Source: an alpha proteobacterium BAL199 (GTDB taxonomy: Bacteria > Pseudomonadota > Alphaproteobacteria > Thalassobaculales > Thalassobaculaceae). Taken from it: a DNA stretch of 64,000 nt. Position numbers and translations under genes: made by a program. Every line of letters begins with the position of its first letter. The stretch's first letter is position 1. A model generated the notes under the pieces. That model did not search any database. It saw nothing but the letters and a program-made list of their open reading frames with translations, and was not told the DNA's origin. Positions 1,588 through 44,924 of this stretch are shown here, one piece after another. The stretch covers positions 310,001 to 374,000 of the forward strand of contig ABHC01000003.1 in assembly GCA_000171835.1 (NCBI GenBank), in the 5' to 3' direction.

Positions 1588-4500
1588 ATGCGCATGTCGG
1601 TTCGCGTACCCCTATTGGTTGTCGGCGTCGCACTCGCGACGGTGGCTCTGCTGACCGTCTCCAACGGCTTTCGCATCGTCGATACGATCTATGAGGAAAA
1701 TCAGGAGAAACTCGTCGCTTTGCGCGCATCGCGGGCAGAGACCGTCGAGCGGTATGCCAACCAGCTTGAAAACCGCGTCCGCACCATCACCAATTCGGAG
1801 ACCACCCATCATGCGCTGGCCGCCTTCGTGGCCGCTGCAGATCGCGTAACCTTTGTCGGTGGAGATCTCGCCGCGTGGGTCCGCGACACACAAGTCAATC
1901 GTGGGTCGTCCGATCAATCCAAGACACGGCCGATGTCCTCCAACGATCCAATGGCGCAGTACTACGCCACCCACGAACGCTTCCATCTGTGGCTGACGGC
2001 CCTGGTCAATGGCCTCGGCATTCGCGACGTTCTGATGGTCTCGCCGAACGGACAGGTCGTGTATTCGGTATCCAAGGGACCGGCATTCGGCACCAACCTC
2101 AACATCGGCCCGTGGTCGTCCACCGGTGCGGCCGGAGCGTTTCGGCGCGCCGTATCGCGAGACGATCCTGACCGGGTGGCATTCGTGGATTTCAGCACCC
2201 GCAGTTGGTCCCCGGAAGACCCTCTAGCCTTCGGCGCGTATGCCGCCAGAGACATGCAGGGCGGTCTGCTCGGCGTTGTGGTGGTGGTCGTCGGCTCGGA
2301 GGGTTTCAACGACATCGTCAAGGGTACCGCCGGCCTCGGCGAGACCGGCGAAACCTACCTGGTCGGGCATGACAATCTGATGCGCAGCGGCTCTCGGCAC
2401 CTACCGGGCGGCGCTGTGCTCAAGCAGGCCGTACACACCGAAAGCGCCGATCGTGCGATCGCCGGGCAGTCCGGATTCGCGACGATCACTGGGTATCGCG
2501 GCATTGAAGTCCTCTCCGCCTATCAACCGGTCGTGGTGTTCGACAACGCCTGGGCTTTGCTGGCCGAAGTCGACGCATCGGAAGAATACCGGTCCGTCTA
2601 CACGACCCTTCAGGAGGCAGCACTGATCGCCCTTGTGATTGCCGGTTTGGCGAGCCTCGCCGGCATCTTGACCGGCCGTGCGATCACTTTGCCGGTGGTG
2701 GCGTTGCGCGATTCGATGCTCCGGTTCACCGAAACCCGCCGTGCGATAGCCGTTCCAGGGAGCGAGCGCCGTGACGAGATCGGCGATGCCGCACGCAGTT
2801 TCAGCGGCCTGACGGAGGAGATCACCCGGTACGTCGACGAACTCGACAAGGAGCATCGACAGGTTGAACAGTCGGCCGCGCGGCTGGCGGATGAACAAGA
2901 ACGCCTGCGCCTGACTCTCGACCAGATGCCGGGTGGTTTGGTCATCCTCGACCGCAACCTGAACGTCCGTCTGTCCAACCGACAGTTCACCCAACTTTAC
3001 GGCCTGCCCGATGCGTTGTCGGAAGAAGGCACCCCCATCGAGGCGCTCCTGCGCTTTCGGGCCGAGCGCGGCGACTACGGCCCCGATGCGGACGACGATC
3101 ACATCGCCCGCCGGATCGTCGACTACCGCAGCAAGGAAGCGCGACGGTACGAGGACATCCTGCCAGGCGGTCGGGTAGCGGCGGTGTTCCGTTCTCCGAC
3201 AGCGGACGGCGGCGTCGTGCTGGTGGTTGCCGACGTCACTGAACTCAAAGATGCCCAGTCGCGTGCCGAAGCGGCGGCGGCAGCCAAGGCGGCCTTCCTG
3301 GCCACCATGAGCCATGAGATCCGCACGCCCATGAACGGCGTAATGTCGATGGCCGAATTGCTGGACCACACCGTCCTCGATGGCGAGCAGCGCGGCATGA
3401 CCCGCGTGATCCGCCAATCGGCCGAAGCCCTGCTGACCGTCATCAACGACATTCTCGACTTCTCCAAGATCGAGGCCGGCCGGCTGCCGATCGAGCGGGT
3501 GCCGTTCGAGCTTGGCGAGTTGGTCGAGGATGTCGCCGAGTTGCTGGCGCCACGCGCCGACGATCATGGACTGGACCTGATCATCGAACTGGCCCCAAAC
3601 CTGCCGGAGCGCGTACTGGGCGATCCGACACGGCTGCGGCAGATCCTGGTCAATCTCGGCGGCAACGCGGTCAAGTTCACCGAAGCCGGAAGCGTGCGGA
3701 TCGCGGCCCGACCCGACGTCCCGGTCGCCGGCGACACGCTGCGACTGTGCCTGGAGGTCACCGACACGGGCATCGGCATGACCGACGAGCAGATGACCCG
3801 GCTGTTCGAGCCCTTTGCACAGGCCGACTCCTCAACCGCCCGTCGCTTCGGCGGCACCGGGCTCGGCTTGTCGATCTGCTTGCGTCTGGCCGAATTGATG
3901 GACGGCGCGATCACCGTGTCGTCGGTGCCTGATGCCGGCTCGACGTTCAGGGTCGAACTGCCGCTCGGCGTCGCGGATCCGGCACCGCTTGCACCTGATG
4001 TCGCGATCGACGACGCACCGATCGTCATGGCCGGCTTCCGGGAGCCGGTGCGCGGGCAGATGCTGGCCGTTCTGGCTGCGGCGGGTATCGCCTCACCGGT
4101 CGAGTGCGACCTCGGCGATCTCGACACCACACTCGCCGATCGACCCGATACCGGCCTGCCAGCCATCGTGCTGCTCGACGGGCGTCGAACCGCCGTGCTC
4201 GACGCCATTCATCGCCTTCAGGGCCTAGGCGATCGGGTTCGACTGATCCTTGTCGCGCCACGTGCGCTGGTCTCAACGCTGGACGAGGCGACCCGTCGAG
4301 GCGTGGTGGCCAACCTGCGGCTGCCGGCACGGCGTGCCGATACCTGGCGGGTGATCGCCGCCGCCCTCGGCCGCGCGACACTGACCGACCGCGCGGCCGG
4401 TGATAGCGATACCTATGCCCCACCGCCGGTCGAGGAGGCACGGGCCGCCGGAGTTCTGATCCTGGTCGCTGAGGACAATCCGACCAACCGGCTGGTCATT

Positions 4501-5650: not shown

Positions 5651-6514
5651 TCACGGCTTACCCAGGATGAACGCCCGGAGAATGCGCTCGGCTTCCGCAG
5701 GACGGTCTCGATGCACGCCGTGCCCCGCACCGTGCACCACCTGGTAGCGCACCAGTTCCTTCGGCAGCGACGCCACGATCTCCTCGGAGTCGGCGAGCGG
5801 GGTGACCGGGTCGCGATCACCGGCCAGCACAAGCGTCGGGCACCGCACCGTGGCAAGGTCCTTGCGATAGTCCATACGCCAGCGCTCGCCATCAGTCTTG
5901 AAGAACCGCGCCGCAGTCGCCTCGCGCCGGATCGCGCGGGCGCGCACCTGCGGATCCTGCGGGCGGGTGTTGTAGTGCGGCAGGCAGTGCCGGTCCCAGT
6001 CCTTGATGACCGTCGGGTCCTTGTCGATCGCCCCGCCCCAGAATCGCTCGGCAGCCCGCCGTGCCTCCGGTCCACCCATAGATTCGAACGCCTCATATTT
6101 GCGTTCGAACACCGACCGGCAGGCGGTGGATGCCAGGATCAGCTTGGACGGCAAATCCGGATGCCGGATTGCGACCGACTGCGCGACGAAGCCGCCAAAC
6201 GACAGGCCTTAGACAATCGGTCGTTCGATCTCCAACGCCTCGCAGAAGCCGGCAATGTCGTCGCCCCATTGGGCCAGGGTCTGCGCTTCTGGCGGGCCAT
6301 CGTCGCTGCGTCCATTGCCGCGATGGTCGATGTAGACGACCTGCGCGATGTCGGCGAATCGTCCGAACCACGGCTTGAAAGAGCTGTGATCGCTGCCCGG
6401 TCCGCCATGCATGACGATCAACGTCGGTTTCGACGTCAACGCCGGTCCGCTCGGCGTCAAGCCGGCTCCCTCGACGTCGAAGAACAGCCGAACCCCATTG
6501 ACCAGGACGCGCAT
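5651..6514 (-). pseudogene. Alpha/beta hydrolase (prolyl-iminopeptidase-like) interrupted by in-frame stop
   Basis: One reading frame of 288 codons encodes a complete alpha/beta hydrolase, but a TAA at 6209-6211 splits it. The N-terminal part has the oxyanion motif HGGPG typical of S33 peptidases and ends at ERPIV. The frame resumes directly at GLSFGG, the nucleophile elbow G-x-S-x-G. The acid (AGDRDPVTP) and histidine (GAGHGVHR) of the triad are intact downstream. The break is therefore one nonsense codon immediately before the catalytic serine, with no frame change. The 101-residue truncated product would lack the nucleophile. Restart at the TTG near 6154 would also miss it. Possible readings are a recent pseudogene, a sequencing error, or stop-codon readthrough (least likely). 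Substrate is unknown. Confidence 0.85.
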
Positions 6515-8846: not shown

Positions 8847-9884
8847 ATGGCCCGGACACGCGAACTGCACGCGGCGGCCGGAGCGGCGGAAGTTCCGGTT
8901 CTTGATCTCGGACCGTATCGCGCCGGTACCGTCGGCGCGCTTGATGCGCTGGCCGAAGAGTTGCGGTACGCGCAGGAGAACGTCGGCTTCTACGTGATCG
9001 TCAACCACGGAGTGCCGTCGTCGCGCATCGCCGCCGCGTTCGAAAGTGCCCGTCGCTTCCACGCCCTGCCTCTGGAGACCAAGCTTGAGTTGCGGGCGAA
9101 CGAGCACAACATCGGCTACTTGCCATTTAAAGGCAGCACGACCCGATCCTCCAAGGTCAACGTCAACACCAAGCCGAACCTGAACGAAGCCTTGTTCGTG
9201 AAACGCGACCTGGCGCCGGACCACCCGGACGTGCTGGCCGGCAAGCGCTACAAGGCGCCGAACCAATGGCCGGACGAGGCTGCCCTGCCCGGCTTTCGCG
9301 GCGACGTCGTGGCGTATTGTGATGCGCTGGAGGCGCTCGCCAAGTCCCTGATCCCGGTGTACGCCCGCGCCCTCGACCTGCCGGCCGACTGGTTCGGCAC
9401 CGCGTTCGACATGCCGATGTACACGCTGCGGATGACGCATTATCCGCCGGTCCCGGAAACCGAAATCGAGGACAACCAGTTCGCCATCGCGCCGCACACC
9501 GATTCCGGCTTCCTGACCCTGCTGGCGCAGTCCGACATTCCCGGCCTGGCGCTCCGTCTGCCGGACGGCAGTTGGGTCGAGCCACCGATGATCCCCGGAT
9601 CGTTTGTCGTCAACACCGGCGACCTGGCTCACCGCTGGACGAATGAGCGGTTCCTCTCGACGCCGCATCGGGTGATCCACCGCACGCCGACCGACCGCTA
9701 TGCGGTGCCGTTCTTCTTCGACTGCTCATACGACCACGTGATGGAATGCATCCCGACCTGTACGGGGCCGGGCAATCCGCAGAAGTATCCGCCGACGACC
9801 TATCCGGAGTACCAGCTCTGGTTCGGCAGCCGGAACTACGCGCACATCAAGCCGAAGGACGGCGAAAAGCTGGCGGAGGGTTGA
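8847..9884 (+). CDS. Isopenicillin N synthase-like 2-oxoglutarate/Fe(II) oxygenase
   Basis: A 345-residue non-heme iron oxygenase. An N-terminal DIOX_N-type segment (VPVLDLGPYR, then GFYVIVNHGV) precedes the double-stranded beta helix core. The iron ligands H217-x-D219 (APHTDSGFLTLL) and H274 (STPHRVIHR) and the co-substrate arginine R284 are visible, so it should be active. GGGAGGA-like ribosome binding sequence lies directly before the ATG. The following SDR begins two bases after its stop codon. Oxygenase plus dehydrogenase is a common pairing in the breakdown or tailoring of small molecules, but the substrate cannot be named. Confidence 0.88.
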   Translation: MARTRELHAAAGAAEVPVLDLGPYRAGTVGALDALAEELRYAQENVGFYVIVNHGVPSSRIAAAFESARRFHALPLETKLELRANEHNIGYLPFKGSTTRSSKVNVNTKPNLNEALFVKRDLAPDHPDVLAGKRYKAPNQWPDEAALPGFRGDVVAYCDALEALAKSLIPVYARALDLPADWFGTAFDMPMYTLRMTHYPPVPETEIEDNQFAIAPHTDSGFLTLLAQSDIPGLALRLPDGSWVEPPMIPGSFVVNTGDLAHRWTNERFLSTPHRVIHRTPTDRYAVPFFFDCSYDHVMECIPTCTGPGNPQKYPPTTYPEYQLWFGSRNYAHIKPKDGEKLAEG

Positions 9885-9886
9885 GT

Positions 9887-10660
9887 ATGACGACTGCCCG
9901 ACGATTCGACGGTCGCGCCGCCATCGTGACGGGGGGCGGTGGCGGACTTGGTCTCGCCATCGCACGGCGGCTGGCTGAGGAAGGTGCCAGTATCCTGCTG
10001 GCCGATATGAACGCCGGCCTCGTCGAAGAGGCCGCAAGCGATCTGACCAGCCCTGGCATTCACGCGGTCCATGTCGACGTGACCGACGACAGCAGCGTGG
10101 CGGCTATGGTGGCCAAGGCGGTCGCTGCGTTCGGCCGGGTCGACATCCTGGTCAACTCGGCCGGGATTGGCGAGCAGGTCTCGTTCCTGAAGCAGCGGAC
10201 CGAGGATTTCGAGCGGATCGTCGCCGTCAACCTGACCGGGTCGTATCGCTGCGTCCGGGCGGTCGCACCGGCGATGATCGCTGCCGGCCAGGGCGCGGTG
10301 ATCAACATCAGCAGTGTGGCCGGACTCACCGGCATTTCCGGCCGCGTCGGCTACGGCAGTTCCAAACATGGTGTGGTCGGCCTGACCCGGACGCTGGCCA
10401 TCGAACTTGCACCGTTCGGCATCCGGGTGAACGCGGTGGCGCCAGGACCGGTGGACACCGCCATGGTTGCGCAGGTCCACACCGAGACGACGCGCTCGAC
10501 CTACACAAGGAACATCCCGCTCGCGCGGTATGGCCTACCGGAGGAGATTGCTGCTGCAGCCGCGTTCCTGGCCTCGGACGATGCCAGCTATATCACCGGC
10601 CATACCTTGCCGGTCGACGGTGGGTTCGCATCCACCGGAGCAATGTTCGATCCCGATTGA
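9887..10660 (+). CDS. Short-chain dehydrogenase/reductase (SDR)
   Basis: A classical SDR of 257 residues. The cofactor motif TGGGGGLG (15-22), NSAG (90-93), catalytic S143 (ISSVAG) and Y156-x3-K160 are all present. The C-terminus ends in LPVDGGFASTGAM, typical of FabG-like enzymes. The start ATG at 9887 follows a GGAGGG that overlaps the stop of the oxygenase gene, so the two are co-transcribed. It likely oxidises or reduces a hydroxyl made by, or supplied to, that oxygenase. The IS1182-like element begins only 24 bases after its stop, which may have separated it from further operon genes. Confidence 0.9.
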   Translation: MTTARRFDGRAAIVTGGGGGLGLAIARRLAEEGASILLADMNAGLVEEAASDLTSPGIHAVHVDVTDDSSVAAMVAKAVAAFGRVDILVNSAGIGEQVSFLKQRTEDFERIVAVNLTGSYRCVRAVAPAMIAAGQGAVINISSVAGLTGISGRVGYGSSKHGVVGLTRTLAIELAPFGIRVNAVAPGPVDTAMVAQVHTETTRSTYTRNIPLARYGLPEEIAAAAAFLASDDASYITGHTLPVDGGFASTGAMFDPD

Positions 10661-12427: not shown

Positions 12428-12826
12428 ATGAAGACGCTCAAGACATTGGCCGCAGCCGGCGTAATCGCTACGACCATGGCACTGGCACCATCGGGCGCCC
12501 ATGCGCAGGCAGCGACGGCTTCCAGCTTCGACGGCTATCGTGTCGTTGCGGTCACCGCCGGCGTGATCGGCGGCGCGGTGGTCGCCGCGATCGTCACCGA
12601 CGGCCTGATCATCCCGGTCTATGCCTATATGACCGGCGGCGCAGCGGCCGGTGGTGGAATGGCCGGTGGTGGAATGGCCGGCGGCGCAGCAGCCGGCGGC
12701 GCGACGGGCATGACCGTTGAGGGAGTCATGATGGGCAACATCGGGCACGTCGTGCGCGGCGGCATGCGGCTCCTCGGTGCTATTGGCGGCGGCTTCTACG
12801 CCGACTCCTGGTACACCGGTCAGTAA
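12428..12826 (+). CDS. Small secreted Gly/Ala-rich protein of unknown function
   Basis: A 132-residue protein. A signal peptide is clear: MKTLKTLAAAGVI, then a hydrophobic stretch and AHAQA cleavage site near residue 28. The mature part has two hydrophobic segments, one rich in Val/Ile near 45-70 and one C-terminal. Between them is a low-complexity region of Gly, Ala and Met (MAGGGMAGG type repeats, about 75-95). AGGAG lies about a dozen bases before the ATG. A strong stem-loop terminator follows at 12841. Its size and composition recall small Gly-rich envelope proteins, but no function can be given. The upstream region is close to the IS end, so its promoter may have been altered. Confidence 0.75.
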   Translation: MKTLKTLAAAGVIATTMALAPSGAHAQAATASSFDGYRVVAVTAGVIGGAVVAAIVTDGLIIPVYAYMTGGAAAGGGMAGGGMAGGAAAGGATGMTVEGVMMGNIGHVVRGGMRLLGAIGGGFYADSWYTGQ

Positions 12827-39502: not shown

Positions 39503-40824
39503 GCGGCCTCCCTTCCCGCCGCTTCGATCACCGGGCGCCGAGCGTCCAGGAATTCCTCGAAGGCGGCGGTGAAGCGGTCGAACTCGGCCGCCCCCATCGG
39601 CAGCGACAGTACCGCCATGCCGCGCCGGGCGGTGTAGATCCCGGCGGCGATCAGGTCGAGGTGCATCAGGTCGATCAGCTTGCGCGAGCGCTTGCCCGAC
39701 TCCGGCGGCGAGTTCGGCGCGGTCGCCCCGGAATGCACCGCCATCATCGAGCCGCGCCCGGTGACGATCATCGGCAGGCCGCGCCGGGTAATCGCGTCGT
39801 TCAGCCGGCCGCGCAGGCTGTCGCCGGCGGCGTTCAGCATGACCGCGCGGTCGGGGGTGTACAACTGGGTCAGCCCGGCCAGCCCGGCCGACATGGTGAA
39901 GACGTTGTTGTTGAAGGTGCCGGCGTGCGGCCAGGCGTCGGGCCGGCGCGGATCGAACCGGGCCAGGATATCGGCGCGACCGCCGAACGCGCCGAAGCTG
40001 AGGCCGCCGCCCAGATACTTGCCCAGCGTCACCAGGTCCGGACGGATGCCGAGCAGGCCGTGCAGCCCCTCGCCCGACAGCCGCGAGGTCATCACCTCGT
40101 CGAAGATCAGCAGCGCGCCGGTCGCCTCGGTGGCGCCGCGCAGCGCCTCCAGGAACGCCTCGCTGCCGGGGATGCAACCGCCAGAGCCCGACATCGGCTC
40201 GACCAGCACGCAAGCCAGCTTGTCGCCTTCGGCTCGGATCAGCGCCGCCGCTCCCTCGGCGTCGTTGTAGTCGCCCATCACGTAGTCGAACGGTGCGTTC
40301 AGCGGCGAGCCGGAGAAGTACAGCACGCCACCGTGATAGGCGCCGCGGAACACCATGACCTTGTCGCGGCCGGTGAAGGCGCGGGCCGCAGCGATCGCCA
40401 TCATGTTGGCTTCGGTGCCGGAATTGGTGAAGCGCACCCGCTCGATCGCCGGGAACCGGTCGACCACCGCCTGGGCCAGCCGCGCCTCCAGCAGGTTCGG
40501 CCCGCCCAGCACCCAGCCGTCGTCGGCCGCCTGCTTGATGGCGTCGCGGATCACCGGCTCGGAATGGCCGTACAGCCCGGCGGTGTATTCGCCGAGGAAG
40601 TCGACCAGTTCGTGGCCGTCGGCGTCCCACAGCCGGCACCCCTCGCCGCGTGCGAAGCGCAGCGGAAACGGGTGGTAATGCAGCACGGTACGGGTGTTGC
40701 CGCCGGGCATGGCCTGCTCGGCCTGCTCCTGGATCGTCCGGCTCTTCGGGTTGGATGCGACGAACCGCTCCGCCGCCTCGGCGTAGGCCGCCTCAAGGTC
40801 CGAGTTGACGAGGGTCGTGGTCAC
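39499..40824 (-). CDS. Class III aminotransferase (glutamate-1-semialdehyde aminomutase-like)
   Basis: A 441-residue PLP enzyme. PGGNTRTVLHYHPFPLRFAR near the N-terminus, SGTEANMMAIAAARAFTGRD (PLP phosphate region), RGAYHGGVLYF, LIFDEVMTSR and the Schiff-base lysine in VTLGKYLGGGLSFGAFGG (near residue 269) define it. The sequence is closest in style to HemL-like enzymes, but the neighbour is an aldolase rather than haem genes, so it more likely acts on an omega-amino or amino sugar substrate. The start overlaps the end of the aldolase gene (ATGA), and the stop overlaps the small gene. Confidence 0.9.
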   Translation of the reverse strand: MTTTLVNSDLEAAYAEAAERFVASNPKSRTIQEQAEQAMPGGNTRTVLHYHPFPLRFARGEGCRLWDADGHELVDFLGEYTAGLYGHSEPVIRDAIKQAADDGWVLGGPNLLEARLAQAVVDRFPAIERVRFTNSGTEANMMAIAAARAFTGRDKVMVFRGAYHGGVLYFSGSPLNAPFDYVMGDYNDAEGAAALIRAEGDKLACVLVEPMSGSGGCIPGSEAFLEALRGATEATGALLIFDEVMTSRLSGEGLHGLLGIRPDLVTLGKYLGGGLSFGAFGGRADILARFDPRRPDAWPHAGTFNNNVFTMSAGLAGLTQLYTPDRAVMLNAAGDSLRGRLNDAITRRGLPMIVTGRGSMMAVHSGATAPNSPPESGKRSRKLIDLMHLDLIAAGIYTARRGMAVLSLPMGAAEFDRFTAAFEEFLDARRPVIEAAGREAA

Positions 40825-41543
40825 GCTGCCCTGCCCTTTCCACCGGCCTTCGCCGGCGCCTTGGCGTCCGGCGCGGCCTTGTCGACGACGCCGTAGCCCA
40901 TGGTACCGAATTTCTCGCCGACCCGCGCGATCTCATCGTCCGGCAGGATCACCGGCTTGCCGACCTGCAGGGTGCGCCAGTACATGGCGGCGAGCGTCTC
41001 GACCTCCAGCGCGAGGGCCAGCGCCTTCGGCAGGGTCGGCCCGATGGCGATCATGCCGTGGTTGGCCAGCAGGCAGGCCCGGCGGTCGCGCATCGCCTCG
41101 AGCGCGGTGTCCGACAGTTCCTGGGTCCCGAAGGTGGCGTAGTCGGAGCAACGAATGGTCGGCCCGCCGGCCTGGGCGATCATGTAGTGGAACGCCGGGA
41201 TCTCCATGCGCAGGCAAGCCAGCGTGGTGGCGAACATGCCGTGGGTGTGGACGATCGCCCCGCAGTCCGGGCGGTGCCGCATGATGTCCAGGTGAAAGCG
41301 CCACTCGCTGGACGGCCGGCGGTTGTCGCTGTGGCTGCCGTCCAGTTCCATCCGGACGATGTCCTCGGGCCGGATCTCCTCGTACGGTATCGCCGACGGC
41401 GTGATGAAGAACCCCGCACTCGGATCGTCGGCCACCCGCACGCTGGCGTTGCCCGAGGTGCCCTGGTTGATGCCGAGCGCGTTCATCTTCAGGCAGGTGT
41501 CGATGACCTGCTGGCGCAGCGCGCGTTCCTTGGCCGGCATCAT
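40821..41543 (-). CDS. Class II aldolase/adducin-family protein
   Basis: A 240-residue protein. Features of the aldolase II fold are GINQGTSGNASVRV near the N-terminus, FFITPSAIPYEEIRPEDIV, the zinc-binding AIVHTHGMFATTLA and the later ACLLANHGMIAIG with the third His. A Lys/Ala-rich tail ends the protein. Such enzymes cleave or epimerise phosphorylated or free sugars. ATG at 41543 (with a second ATG next to it) fits the family start; the longer frame upstream has a Cys-rich unlikely sequence. It is the first gene of the coupled set aldolase, aminotransferase, small protein. Confidence 0.9.
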   Translation of the reverse strand: MMPAKERALRQQVIDTCLKMNALGINQGTSGNASVRVADDPSAGFFITPSAIPYEEIRPEDIVRMELDGSHSDNRRPSSEWRFHLDIMRHRPDCGAIVHTHGMFATTLACLRMEIPAFHYMIAQAGGPTIRCSDYATFGTQELSDTALEAMRDRRACLLANHGMIAIGPTLPKALALALEVETLAAMYWRTLQVGKPVILPDDEIARVGEKFGTMGYGVVDKAAPDAKAPAKAGGKGRAA

Positions 41544-41622
41544 GACGGGCGTATCCTCTGGGCTGGTTCTCCGGTGCCCCGATCCTGAAACAAACTCGCC
41601 GCCGCGGGAAGGGGTGGCGACA

Positions 41623-42882
41623 TTACCGTTGTGGCACGGCCGGCACACCTTCCGCCCAGGATCCAACCAGCAGCGCCCAATCGGCCAGCTTATCGCCCAG
41701 ATGCGGGAACGCCACCGATTCCACCCGGAACAGCAGATATCCGATGACGAAAAACAGGAAGATCGACAGCAACCACGACAGCAATACTCCACCCACCAGC
41801 CACGTCCGCTGGATTGGCGCTACCGCCGCCCCGTCTTGCGCCATCCATGGCCGGGTGAAAGTAGGCAACACCAGAGCCGCCCATGCGGCGAACAGGTGCA
41901 GCGCGGTCGGAACCAGCGTGCTGACCAGCATGATGGTGACAGACAGGCCAGCGCCGAGCGGATCATCACGAGCAGCGTCGACAAAGTCCTTCCATGGAAA
42001 CACCGCGCCGAACCGGTTTGCCAGCCCGAGTGTGGCAGCCATGACGGTGGCGAGCAGCCACAGGAACCCAATCGCCAACCCGAGGTCCGCCGCAACGTGC
42101 CGGACGATCGACCACCGCCGCGGCAATGCCGAATCGCTCGACGGGAACAACCCGCGCATCAGCCGCCGGCTCGCCGCCCACGACAGCCAGTCGAGCAGCG
42201 CGTTCAGCACTGGCAGCAAACTGTATAAGATTACAAGAATCGCGCCGGCCGCGACGGCCGCGACGACCGCAACGACCGCGCCGGCCGCGCCGGCCGCGCC
42301 GGCCGCGCCGGCCGCGCCGGCCGCGACGACCGCGCGTACCATGAACCGCGTCGCGCTGGACGCCCTAGATCGATGTAGACGTTGTGACAGCCAGTCGGCC
42401 AGGACGTTCGCGGCAGCCTCTTCGTGACGAAGCCACCCGGCGAAAATCAGGCCACCGAGCGTCGATGATGCAACGACAATGACTACCCCGGCAGCGCGAT
42501 CGTGCGCCGCCGTCGATGCGTCATTAACCACCGACCACAGCGGCCCACCGGCAACCCACCCGATCAGGATCGCCAGAACCGGATAGAAGAACGCTAAAAG
42601 CAGGCATCGATCAAACGCACGCCAAGACCACGGCGCCCCGAACCAGCGATCCAACCGAACCAGCCCCGCTACCACGAACCGACACCACCGGCGCGCCCAG
42701 CCGTCGTGGCGCAACGCACGCTTCAGGGCTTCGAAGTTGGCCGGATCCTCAAGCTTCTTGTCGAACCAGGTCAAAGCGGTCCAGAACGCCTTCCCGGTGA
42801 GTCCGAGCCCGATGAGCGCGCCGACGACGATCGCGATATCCGCCGACACGCCGCCGACTATCCCTTCAATGAACGCCTGCAT
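41623..42882 (-). CDS. Multi-span membrane protein of unknown function with Ala/Gly/Val repeat
   Basis: A 419-residue protein with about eight hydrophobic segments. The first is ADIAIVVGALIGLGLTG. A positively charged stretch follows (WFDKKLEDPANFEALKRALR) and then a pair of spans. A third region at about 185-225 is a low-complexity run of Ala, Gly and Val, encoded by a 9-bp tandem array (42245-42334). Further spans near 290-345 and 370-400 close the protein. There is no known domain. The G-rich sequence before ATG 42882 could serve as ribosome site. The gene stands alone. Confidence 0.7.
   Translation of the reverse strand: MQAFIEGIVGGVSADIAIVVGALIGLGLTGKAFWTALTWFDKKLEDPANFEALKRALRHDGWARRWCRFVVAGLVRLDRWFGAPWSWRAFDRCLLLAFFYPVLAILIGWVAGGPLWSVVNDASTAAHDRAAGVVIVVASSTLGGLIFAGWLRHEEAAANVLADWLSQRLHRSRASSATRFMVRAVVAAGAAGAAGAAGAAGAVVAVVAAVAAGAILVILYSLLPVLNALLDWLSWAASRRLMRGLFPSSDSALPRRWSIVRHVAADLGLAIGFLWLLATVMAATLGLANRFGAVFPWKDFVDAARDDPLGAGLSVTIMLVSTLVPTALHLFAAWAALVLPTFTRPWMAQDGAAVAPIQRTWLVGGVLLSWLLSIFLFFVIGYLLFRVESVAFPHLGDKLADWALLVGSWAEGVPAVPQR
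42245..42334. repeat. Ten-unit 9-bp tandem repeat inside the membrane-protein gene
   Basis: Ten consecutive 9-bp units: CCGGCCGCG, ACGGCCGCG, ACGACCGCA, ACGACCGCG, five exact CCGGCCGCG, and ACGACCGCG. On the coding (reverse) strand they give an Ala/Gly/Val tripeptide periodicity. Because the unit is a multiple of three, copy-number change would lengthen or shorten a hydrophobic segment without a frameshift. Confidence 0.92.
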
Positions 42883-43046
42883 CCCACCCCGCCTACAGAT
42901 GCACGTCATGCACCCGTAAGACTATCGCGGAAAGTGTGAGCCGGTCATACAATTCGGGACGCGGACCGGCCCGTCGCGGCTTCGCTTCGCTCGCACCTCA
43001 GGGCGACAGATTTGAGTGAACAGCGAGCGCTCACGCACACTCTGCC

Positions 43047-43082
43047 GTCCTGAGGAGCGGCCAACGGTCGGCCACGAAGGAT
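43047..43082. repeat. REP-like imperfect palindrome, copy 2
   Basis: Arms at 43047-43062 and 43067-43082 around AACG. The right arm shares CGGCCACGAAGGAT with the copy at 39235-39248. It lies between the membrane-protein gene and the end of mtnA, in a GC-rich, gene-free stretch of 227 bases. Confidence 0.5.
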
Positions 43083-43109
43083 CCACCGGCCGCTGGCCGA
43101 TCTCGCTAC

Positions 43110-44213
43110 CTACTCCCCGGCCGCCCGGCTCTCCGGAAACAGGCCGCGCAGGCCTTCTGCCGTCGCCGGTGCCACGCCGCGTTCGGTGATCAGGCCGGTG
43201 ACCAGCCGCGCCGGGGTGACGTCGAAGGCCGGGTTGGCGGCCTTGCTGGCCTTGGGGGTGATGGTGACGGCGCCGATGCTGCCGTCGTCGAGCCGGCCGG
43301 GGATGCGGGTCACCTCGTCGCCGGAGCGTTCCTCGATCGGGATCGCGAAGCCGTCGTGCAGGGTCCAGTCGATGGTCGGGCTCGGCAGGGCGACGTAGAA
43401 CGGTACGCCGTTGTCGTGGGCGGCCAGCGCCTTCAGGTAGGTGCCGATCTTGTTGGCGACATCGCCGTTGGCGCTGACCCGGTCGGTGCCGGTGATGCAC
43501 AGATCCACCTGGCCGCGCTGCATCAGGTGGCCGCCGGCGTTGTCGACGATCACCGTGTGGTCGACCCCGTGATTACCGAGTTCCCAGGCGGTCAGGAAGG
43601 CGCCCTGGTTGCGCGGCCTTGTCTCGTCGACCCAGACATGGATCGGGATGCCAGCGTCGTGCGCCTGGTAGATCGGCGAGGTGGCGGTGCCCCAGTCGAC
43701 GGTGGCGAGCCAGCCGGCGTTGCAGTGGGTCAGCACGTTGACGGTCTCGCCGGGCCGCTTCTTCGCCGCGATGCCCCGGATGATCTCCAGCCCGTGCCGA
43801 CCGATGGCGTGGTTCAGTTCGGCGTCCTCGTCGCAGATCCGCCGGGCGAACGCCTGGGCCGTCGCAATCCGTTCGCCCGGCGCCACGGCGGCCAGACGAG
43901 CCCGGCCGGCGTCGAGCGCCCAGCGCAGGTTGACCGCGGTCGGCCGGGTCTGCATCAAGGTCTCGTAAGCGTTGGCGAGGCCGGCGTCGCTGGCATCGGC
44001 GCGCATCGCCAGCCACAGCCCCCAGGCCGCCGTCGCCCCGATCAGCGGGGCGCCGCGCACAAGCATCGCCTTGATGGCGTGGGCGGCGTCGGCCATCGAC
44101 TCAAGGCGCGCGGTGACGAAATCGTGCGGCAGCCGGGTCTGGTCGATGATCTCGACCGCCGAGGCGTCGGCGGCCTGCCAGATCGGGCGATAATGGGTTC
44201 CGTCGACCTTCAT
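43110..44213 (-). CDS. mtnA: S-methyl-5-thioribose-1-phosphate isomerase
   Basis: A 367-residue enzyme of the methionine salvage pathway that converts methylthioribose-1-phosphate to the ribulose form. The family motifs are clear: [13 protein letters not shown] near 53-65, catalytic C164 in [11 protein letters not shown] and D244 in [37 protein letters not shown] lies between. The ATG at 44213 has GGAGCG upstream; the frame runs further upstream but over the promoter of the divergent kinase gene. No other salvage gene is next to it. No SAM-type riboswitch was seen. Confidence 0.96.
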
Positions 44214-44342
44214 GGCGTCGCTCCATCGGGTTCTCAGCGGACAAAATGGCGAGCCTCGCACTCTTGCACAACCGTTTAGCCGATGCGCGGCGGTTGCCGA
44301 TGCGGCAGGCTGGGGAACCTCGATCAGTGGACCGTCGAAACC

Positions 44343-44924
44343 ATGCACACTCGCCGCATTCACATCCTGGGCGCTTCCGGATCGGGCACGACCACCCTCG
44401 GTCGTGTGCTGGCCGGCGAGATGGCGGTTCCGCACCATGACACCGACGACTACTTCTGGCTGCCGACCGACCCGCCGTTCACTGAGAAACGACCCGAAGC
44501 CGATCGCCTGCGGCTGATGACCGAGTTGTTCACGCCGCGTGCGGCGTGGGTGCTGAGTGGATCGCTGGTCGGCTGGGGCGATCCGCTGATCCCGCTGTTC
44601 GATCTGGTCGTCTTCCTGCAAACCCCCGCCGCGACCCGGCTTGCGCGGCTGCGTGACCGTGAGGTGCTGCGCTACGGACAGGCTGCCGTTGGATCCGGCG
44701 GCACGCATCACGAAGCGACCGAGGGCTTCCTGAACTGGGCCGCCGGCTATGACGGCGGCGGGCTCGAGGGACGTTCGCTGCGCCGTCATGAGGAATGGCT
44801 GGCCGGCTTGCCTTGCCCGGCGGTTCGCCTGGACGGCTCCCGGCCGATCCCCGAACTCGTTGCATCCCTGCTAGGCGCAGCGACACGTGCCGCGTTTGAT
44901 GACAGCCCCGGGAGCGGGTGCTAG
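44343..44924 (+). CDS. P-loop nucleotide kinase-like protein
   Basis: A 193-residue P-loop protein. The Walker A is [11 protein letters not shown] (10-20), followed by [14 protein letters not shown], which resembles adenylate kinase-like and shikimate kinase-like small kinases. A LID-like region with [14 protein letters not shown] follows, then FLNWAAGYD. It likely phosphorylates a small metabolite or acts as an AAA-type topology-modulation-like ATPase. Substrate unknown. It lies between mtnA (divergent) and purB (same direction, 36 bases). Confidence 0.82.

Follow-up and report, generated by a model that had tools for sequence, protein, structure and literature searches.

The window, a stretch of 64,000 nucleotides of alphaproteobacterial DNA, carries a membrane-protein gene with a short tandem repeat between two conserved modules. 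The features of the locus, in window coordinates, are the following.

40821..41543, minus strand: class II aldolase-family gene, downstream flank (PF00596)
41623..42909, minus strand: membrane-protein gene, 428 aa from the first ATG (ORF list)
41626..42243, minus strand: C-terminal module, LPVLNALLDWLSWAASR ... STLVPTALH, residues 223-428 (alignments, profile searches)
42241-42335, minus strand: tandem array of period 9, 10.6 copies, coding residues 192-223 (TRF, period scoring)
42580..42630, minus strand: N-terminal module motif W..xxFDRCLLLAFFYP, residues 94-110 (alignments)
42882, minus strand: alternative start, the second ATG (residue 10), downstream of the GGCGGGGTGGG stretch (by eye)
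43110..44789, minus strand: mtnA-holding ORF, upstream flank, with an IF-2B-family domain in its C-terminal part (PF01008)

The second ATG, at 42882, follows GGCGGGGTGGG and may be the true start of the gene.

The array had the top score among the three found by TRF in the window (score 134, 89% matches, no indels). The first-pass annotation had described a 9-bp array inside a membrane-protein gene, with five exact and five near-exact units, and TRF bears this out: the period is 9, the copy number is 10.6, and the longest exactly periodic run is 50 nt, about 5.6 units. The unit is also, as proposed, a multiple of three that lies in frame within ORF 41623-42909, and its minus-strand translation is RAVVAAGAAGAAGAAGAAGAVVAVVAAVAAGA; the first-pass annotation had named no strand. 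Phase variation by frameshift requires a unit that is not a multiple of three, and the unit here is 9, in frame. Two minor arrays were detected elsewhere in the window, one of period 15 at 12646-12681 (2.4 copies, 100% matches) and one of period 20 at 6430-6478 (2.4 copies, 83% matches).

An exact periodicity of 50 nt was reached in none of 2000 resamplings in which the peptide was kept and codons were drawn following the usage of four neighbouring genes (mean 20.4, maximum 46). The period score of the gene was 65, and no shuffle of its codons, out of 200, scored above 12. The longest exact repeat in the array, 23 nt, was above the maximum for permuted hexamers (21) and equal to the maximum obtained with resampled tract codons. 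Alanine codons in the array are mixed (GCG 11, GCC 7) and resemble those in the rest of the gene. When 24 nt of the array were compared to the 6.1 Mb genome, matches with 0-2 mismatches were confined to the array; outside it, two isolated matches were found, each with 3 mismatches. Hairpin-promoted instability of the array was considered as well: 179 of 200 shuffles folded equally well or better as single-strand DNA, and such instability is therefore unsupported.

We consider the window gene to be accessory, and probably horizontally moving, because its GC3 is low, its flanking genes adjoin in three of eight genomes, and same-genus genomes lack a relative. GC3, with the array excluded, is 0.75, versus 0.89-0.93 in four neighbours. 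Relatives of mtnA were present in 8 out of 8 genomes searched, and in three of these (G003, G014 and G022) mtnA and the class II aldolase gene are separated by some 15-30 bp. The same two genes are about 400 bp apart in the same-genus genome G002, and about 1.2 kb apart in G001, also of the same genus, where a 339-aa ORF of another kind lies between them. In G010, G026 and G030, no aldolase gene was found within the 1.5 kb flank of mtnA. A relative of the window protein was absent from all 8 mtnA loci. Among the genomes of 61 relatives, two matched the window protein at E ≤ 0.001, its own genome and, at a different locus, G014; the two same-genus genomes gave no match at this threshold. The mtnA-aldolase interval (41543-43110) is itself variable, being empty in three relatives and holding the window gene in the window.

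Searches against collections of known families were negative for the window protein: no Pfam family was matched at E ≤ 1, no PADLOC or PHROGs family at E ≤ 10, and just two NCBIfam models, with E 0.29 and 6.9, far under cut-off. The window and G014 proteins matched each other pairwise in both directions (E 6.8e-4 and 3.6e-4) and have common motifs. Residues 71-161 of the window protein matched a G323 protein pairwise (E 1.6e-8), and the N-terminal module is present in the window protein. Profiles of the C-terminal module were then built from the relatives in G014, G280, G146 and G323, and searched in a sample comprising one genome per species. Matches were found in 9 of 385 genomes of the class (own genome included; G064 and G217 doubtful), in 6 of 185 genomes of the phylum (own genome and the doubtful G217 included), and in 2 of 195 genomes of the Bradyrhizobium aeschynomenes genus (that species' genome included). 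As the window sequence is one row of the C-module profile, its own match arises by construction. A scan of genome contigs gave 14 loci, some identical to genes in G323, G346 and G359; they include loci of Rhodospira trueperi ATCC 700224 and of two strains of Bradyrhizobium, as well as a Minwuia MAG that has the gene twice. Scanning the genome contigs using the window protein alone returned no relative, and plasmid and phage record collections returned no match for the queries tried.

Alignments define an N-terminal motif, W..xxxDRCLLLAxxYP, and a C-terminal module, LPxxNAxFDWxSxGLTR ... D...A ... WxYxxLxSTxxPTxxH, which are conserved in the family. The most distant rows, G344, G146 and G014, probably belong to it, judging from short motifs on long branches. 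The weak profile hits L025 (in G064) and L026 (in G217) were kept in the genome tallies and, being doubtful, excluded from the tract counts below. Two other candidates, L016 and L017, which matched only residues 99-220 of the window protein, were dropped before counting: by eye, they are of an unrelated enzyme type, presumably dihydroxy-acid-dehydratase-like. The protein family had been called unknown. It does lack a name, but profile searches gave its outline. No description of it was found in the literature searched, a collection with few subscription papers. Among 11 members scanned against Pfam, only L037 matched anything, namely DUF4062; the family is thereby outlined for genes with no Pfam match in the members scanned, save for this added domain.

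In most members seen, the conserved N- and C-terminal modules flank a middle coded by short in-frame repeats. Self-similarity at periods 6, 9 and 12 was scored in 27 sequences, with 200 codon shuffles per sequence, and 17 of the 27 had a tract scoring above all shuffles; this count takes in both ends of one gene, L103 and L107. In a previous run, with 100 shuffles per sequence, the figure was 12 out of 20. L123, which shows the C-module only and no tract, stands outside the count, its gene being represented there by L125. Of the ten sequences scored without a tract, eight lack one (G014, G280b, L030, L035, L042, L088, G344 and L120), and the other two may be too short to show it: L031 stops at a contig end ahead of the usual tract position, and the ORF of L040 is short. 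Tracts lie between the N and C modules; in fragments, they sit where the visible part of the middle ends. From the tract end to the N of the C-terminal motif, 53-84 residues were counted in 12 sequences where both are visible, and 13, 24, 27 and 31 in the window protein, L121, L125 and L122, respectively. The window protein has its tract between the modules (score 65, period 9); across the family, with 17 of 27 sequences bearing one, a tract is usual and not defining. Period 9 recurs in L121, which shares a branch of the tree with the window. This branch (96/91) groups the window, G014, L120, L121 and L122, and the end branches leading to the window and to G014 are long.

Tract length, unit and codon differ between relatives, presence and absence are scattered, and the window array is one such tract. 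That this segment is repeat-coded and varies in frame, as the first-pass annotation supposed for the window gene, thus holds among relatives, which often code this part by in-frame repeats that differ from member to member. Turnover at the DNA level shows in the alanine codons of several tracts, which are nearly uniform and unlike those elsewhere in the gene. GCT makes up 57 of 58 in the G280a tract (4 of 59 outside it), 36 of 37 in L041 (6 of 70 outside) and 21 of 21 in L038 (3 of 25 outside); GCA makes up 33 of 34 in L036 (3 of 65 outside), and GCC 14 of 14 in L122 (5 of 19 outside). In other tracts the bias is weaker, as in L037 (GCT, 28 of 38).

These codons bear on an explanation by selection on the amino acids alone, in which a flexible, small-residue membrane segment would be favoured and the DNA repeats would simply follow from the peptide. 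Tract peptides are indeed mostly made of Ala, Gly, Val, Phe, Ser and Ile despite differing units: most read Ala-X, with X being Val, Gly, Phe, Ser or Ile, together with Val-Val-Gly in L121 and Ala-Ala-Gly in the window. However, the choice among synonymous codons is close to uniform in several tracts and departs from that in the remainder of each gene, and the periodicity of the window array was unmatched by codon resampling of the same peptide; both make this explanation very improbable. L032 carries an (Ala-Ser)n run at 230-290 aa of its membrane protein, versus Val, Gly and Phe runs in most others.

Copies within one genome illustrate the extent of the differences. The tandem paralogues of G280 (L011 and L014) agree in 63% of the C-module, yet only one of them bears a tract, of about 123 aa and the longest seen. 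The two copies of the Minwuia MAG agree in 60% of the N-module, 62% of the C-module and 36% of the middle, and one of them has a tract. Altogether the middle was less alike than the C-module in 9 out of 12 pairs, four pairs involving fragments and the G280 pair being unreliable; the G280a/G280b middle value (25%) was left unused, as the N motif of G280b escaped the rule used for splitting. In the other 3 of the 12 pairs the middle was at least as alike as the C-module, which is expected of two Ala-rich middles. On a 23-row tree, 7 gains or losses of the tract were needed, of which well-supported branches force 3, and shuffled labels needed 6.8 on average. Tract presence on this tree is no more clustered than shuffled labels, and the tract therefore occurs here and there in the family, not as blocks passed on by descent. 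On an earlier tree, of 22 rows, 6 changes were needed and 6 were forced. Longest exact repeats were also measured in 13 tracts, and none went beyond permuted hexamers, with the exception of the window tract (23 nt).

The array had been taken for an Ala/Gly/Val membrane segment. This agrees with the host protein, which is rich in predicted membrane helices, but less well with the repeat units themselves. On an approximate membrane insertion scale applied to 21-residue windows, the AAG units summed to about +2.7 to +5.4, which is weakly hydrophobic, and the V/I/L-rich stretch that follows them, from residue 212, to about -2.3, which is strongly hydrophobic. It is thus likelier, on these predictions, that the V/I/L-rich stretch is the membrane span, rather than the AAG units. 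On the same scale, Gly-rich tracts of relatives were borderline and Val/Phe-rich tracts hydrophobic. AlphaFold models of the window protein and L029 were helical almost throughout, with mean pLDDT of 66.7 and 68.7; pLDDT fell below 50 in parts of the tract regions (residues 200-222 in the window protein; 238-247 and 280-347 in L029), and in some other stretches too.

Copy number of the array was also proposed to tune a channel or sensor in the window species. An in-frame unit in a membrane protein and the variation of repeats across the family speak for such tuning. The exact units, however, are weakly hydrophobic, and Foldseek searches of both models against the PDB gave nothing at E ≤ 0.001, and no channel or sensor fold (the best match, at E 0.016, was a MOP-superfamily transporter with a TM-score of about 0.2). 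We consider this tuning improbable.

Hexamer tracts of this kind were rare elsewhere in the class. An unguided pattern, made of six units of the hexamer GCW KKC and allowing a single mismatch, was matched in 6 of 385 genomes of the class, falling within the family in G280, G323 and G359, and elsewhere in G127, G174 and G184. Thus 3 of 9 family-bearing genomes have it, versus 3 of 376 others (Fisher p 1.7e-4). A stricter hexamer pattern gave 29 stretches in viral contigs, among which only L103 and L107 show family modules, full frames having been read for four and short stretches for all. Many of the others code, by eye, Ser/Asp, Pro/Ala, Ala/Ser, Gln/Arg or Ala/Thr repeats on the other strand. 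L103 and L107 come from the same metagenome and hold the two ends of a single family gene: each contig stops within the tract, and the overlap between them is exact over 61 nt. This phage-linked gene was found by the DNA pattern, two profile scans of viral contigs having returned no relative; a viral-contig scan using the gene itself returned only itself. In 5 of the 17 tract sequences (L034, L038, L103, L107 and L122), a contig ends in or beside the tract. Short-read assemblers break at long repeats, so such ends need not signal variation within a population.

The tracts could be mutational by-products of slippage, expanding where a short-lived accessory gene tolerates them and serving no particular function. 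The genes are sporadic, 10 of the 27 sequences show no tract, tract presence is scattered on the tree, and parts of the tract regions are modelled at pLDDT below 50, all of which fits such neutral expansion. It sits less well with reading frames that remain uninterrupted across tracts as long as about 120 residues, with a place between the modules that is kept in divergent members, and with the occurrence of such hexamer tracts otherwise in only 3 of the 385 class genomes, in other settings. We judge it somewhat unlikely.

We tentatively prefer, at slightly under even confidence, that the family consists of accessory, mobile membrane proteins whose middle would be remodelled by in-frame repeat turnover, perhaps in phage-host conflict. 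A mobile membrane protein of phage-host conflict is favoured because of DUF4062 and TIR at L037, and of phage genes beside L103 and L107. In L037, an N-terminal DUF4062 is joined to the membrane part (E 4.8e-5, 23.9 bits versus a Pfam cut-off of 24.7); the window protein and the other 10 members scanned with Pfam lack this match. A 2026 preprint (PMC13174449) reports DUF4062 to be a family of TIR-like NADases acting against phages, with an antiphage system activated by the portal. On the L037 contig, a TIR_2-domain gene (8972-9940, minus strand) lies 2.4 kb from the DUF4062-membrane fusion gene, on the opposite strand. Head-morphogenesis and terminase genes adjoin the family gene in L103; in L107 a nuclease gene adjoins it and an anti-repressor gene lies some 5 kb off. 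The same L107 contig, of phage type, also has a DUF4760 protein gene (2222-3193, minus strand). At the remaining loci the gene is mostly alone among ordinary-looking genes (by eye, with nine neighbours scanned), and the window protein has no conflict domain or PADLOC model match (Pfam E ≤ 1; PADLOC E ≤ 10). A conflict role, suggested by two loci (L037 and L103/L107), is the less certain part of the proposal.

If mobile membrane proteins are remodelled in this way, slippage or unequal recombination would add or remove units of 3n bases, and each gain or loss would alter the length and helix content of the membrane-embedded middle, without frameshift. With less certainty, the protein might act as a membrane sensor or effector in phage-host conflict, and the changing middle could be what contacts a partner or makes up a pore. 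A bolder version seems to us unlikely as a whole: that a mobile, sometimes phage-linked family of membrane immune proteins diversifies its membrane-embedded middle through continual expansion, contraction and homogenisation of in-frame codon repeats, each lineage having its own repeat-built helices. If true, this would be a repeat-driven counterpart of hypermutated immune sensors. Diversity-generating retroelements are reported to target hypermutation to putative antigen sensors, by error-prone reverse transcription. The likeness is in outline, part of a putative conflict protein being diversified; unlike there, the pattern here is one of tandem repeat turnover.

Contingency loci and intragenic variable tandem repeats are short coding repeats whose unit is a multiple of three, so that protein length can change in frame. 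The tracts of the window family resemble them in being short coding repeats with a 3n unit, and differ in recurring, with units and codons that vary, at the centre of a family of membrane proteins, as seen between relatives. Tandem repeats that alter a protein are known chiefly from surface proteins and from on/off switches. The present family, of membrane proteins, seems to rebuild its middle out of repeats in the DNA, and codon signatures in several members expose turnover at the DNA level. A member joined to DUF4062 and another among phage head genes provide a lead on membrane-protein diversification in phage-host conflict. With the DUF4062 or Swarozyc NADases (PMC13174449) the family shares a patchy distribution and, in L037, the N-terminal DUF4062; it differs in that the window protein and the other 10 members scanned are without this domain, and the words transmembrane and membrane are absent from the main text of that preprint.

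One record, that of L041, is titled Solirubrobacterales, yet its gene groups with alphaproteobacterial members on the tree; it is possibly a mis-binned contig or a transfer.
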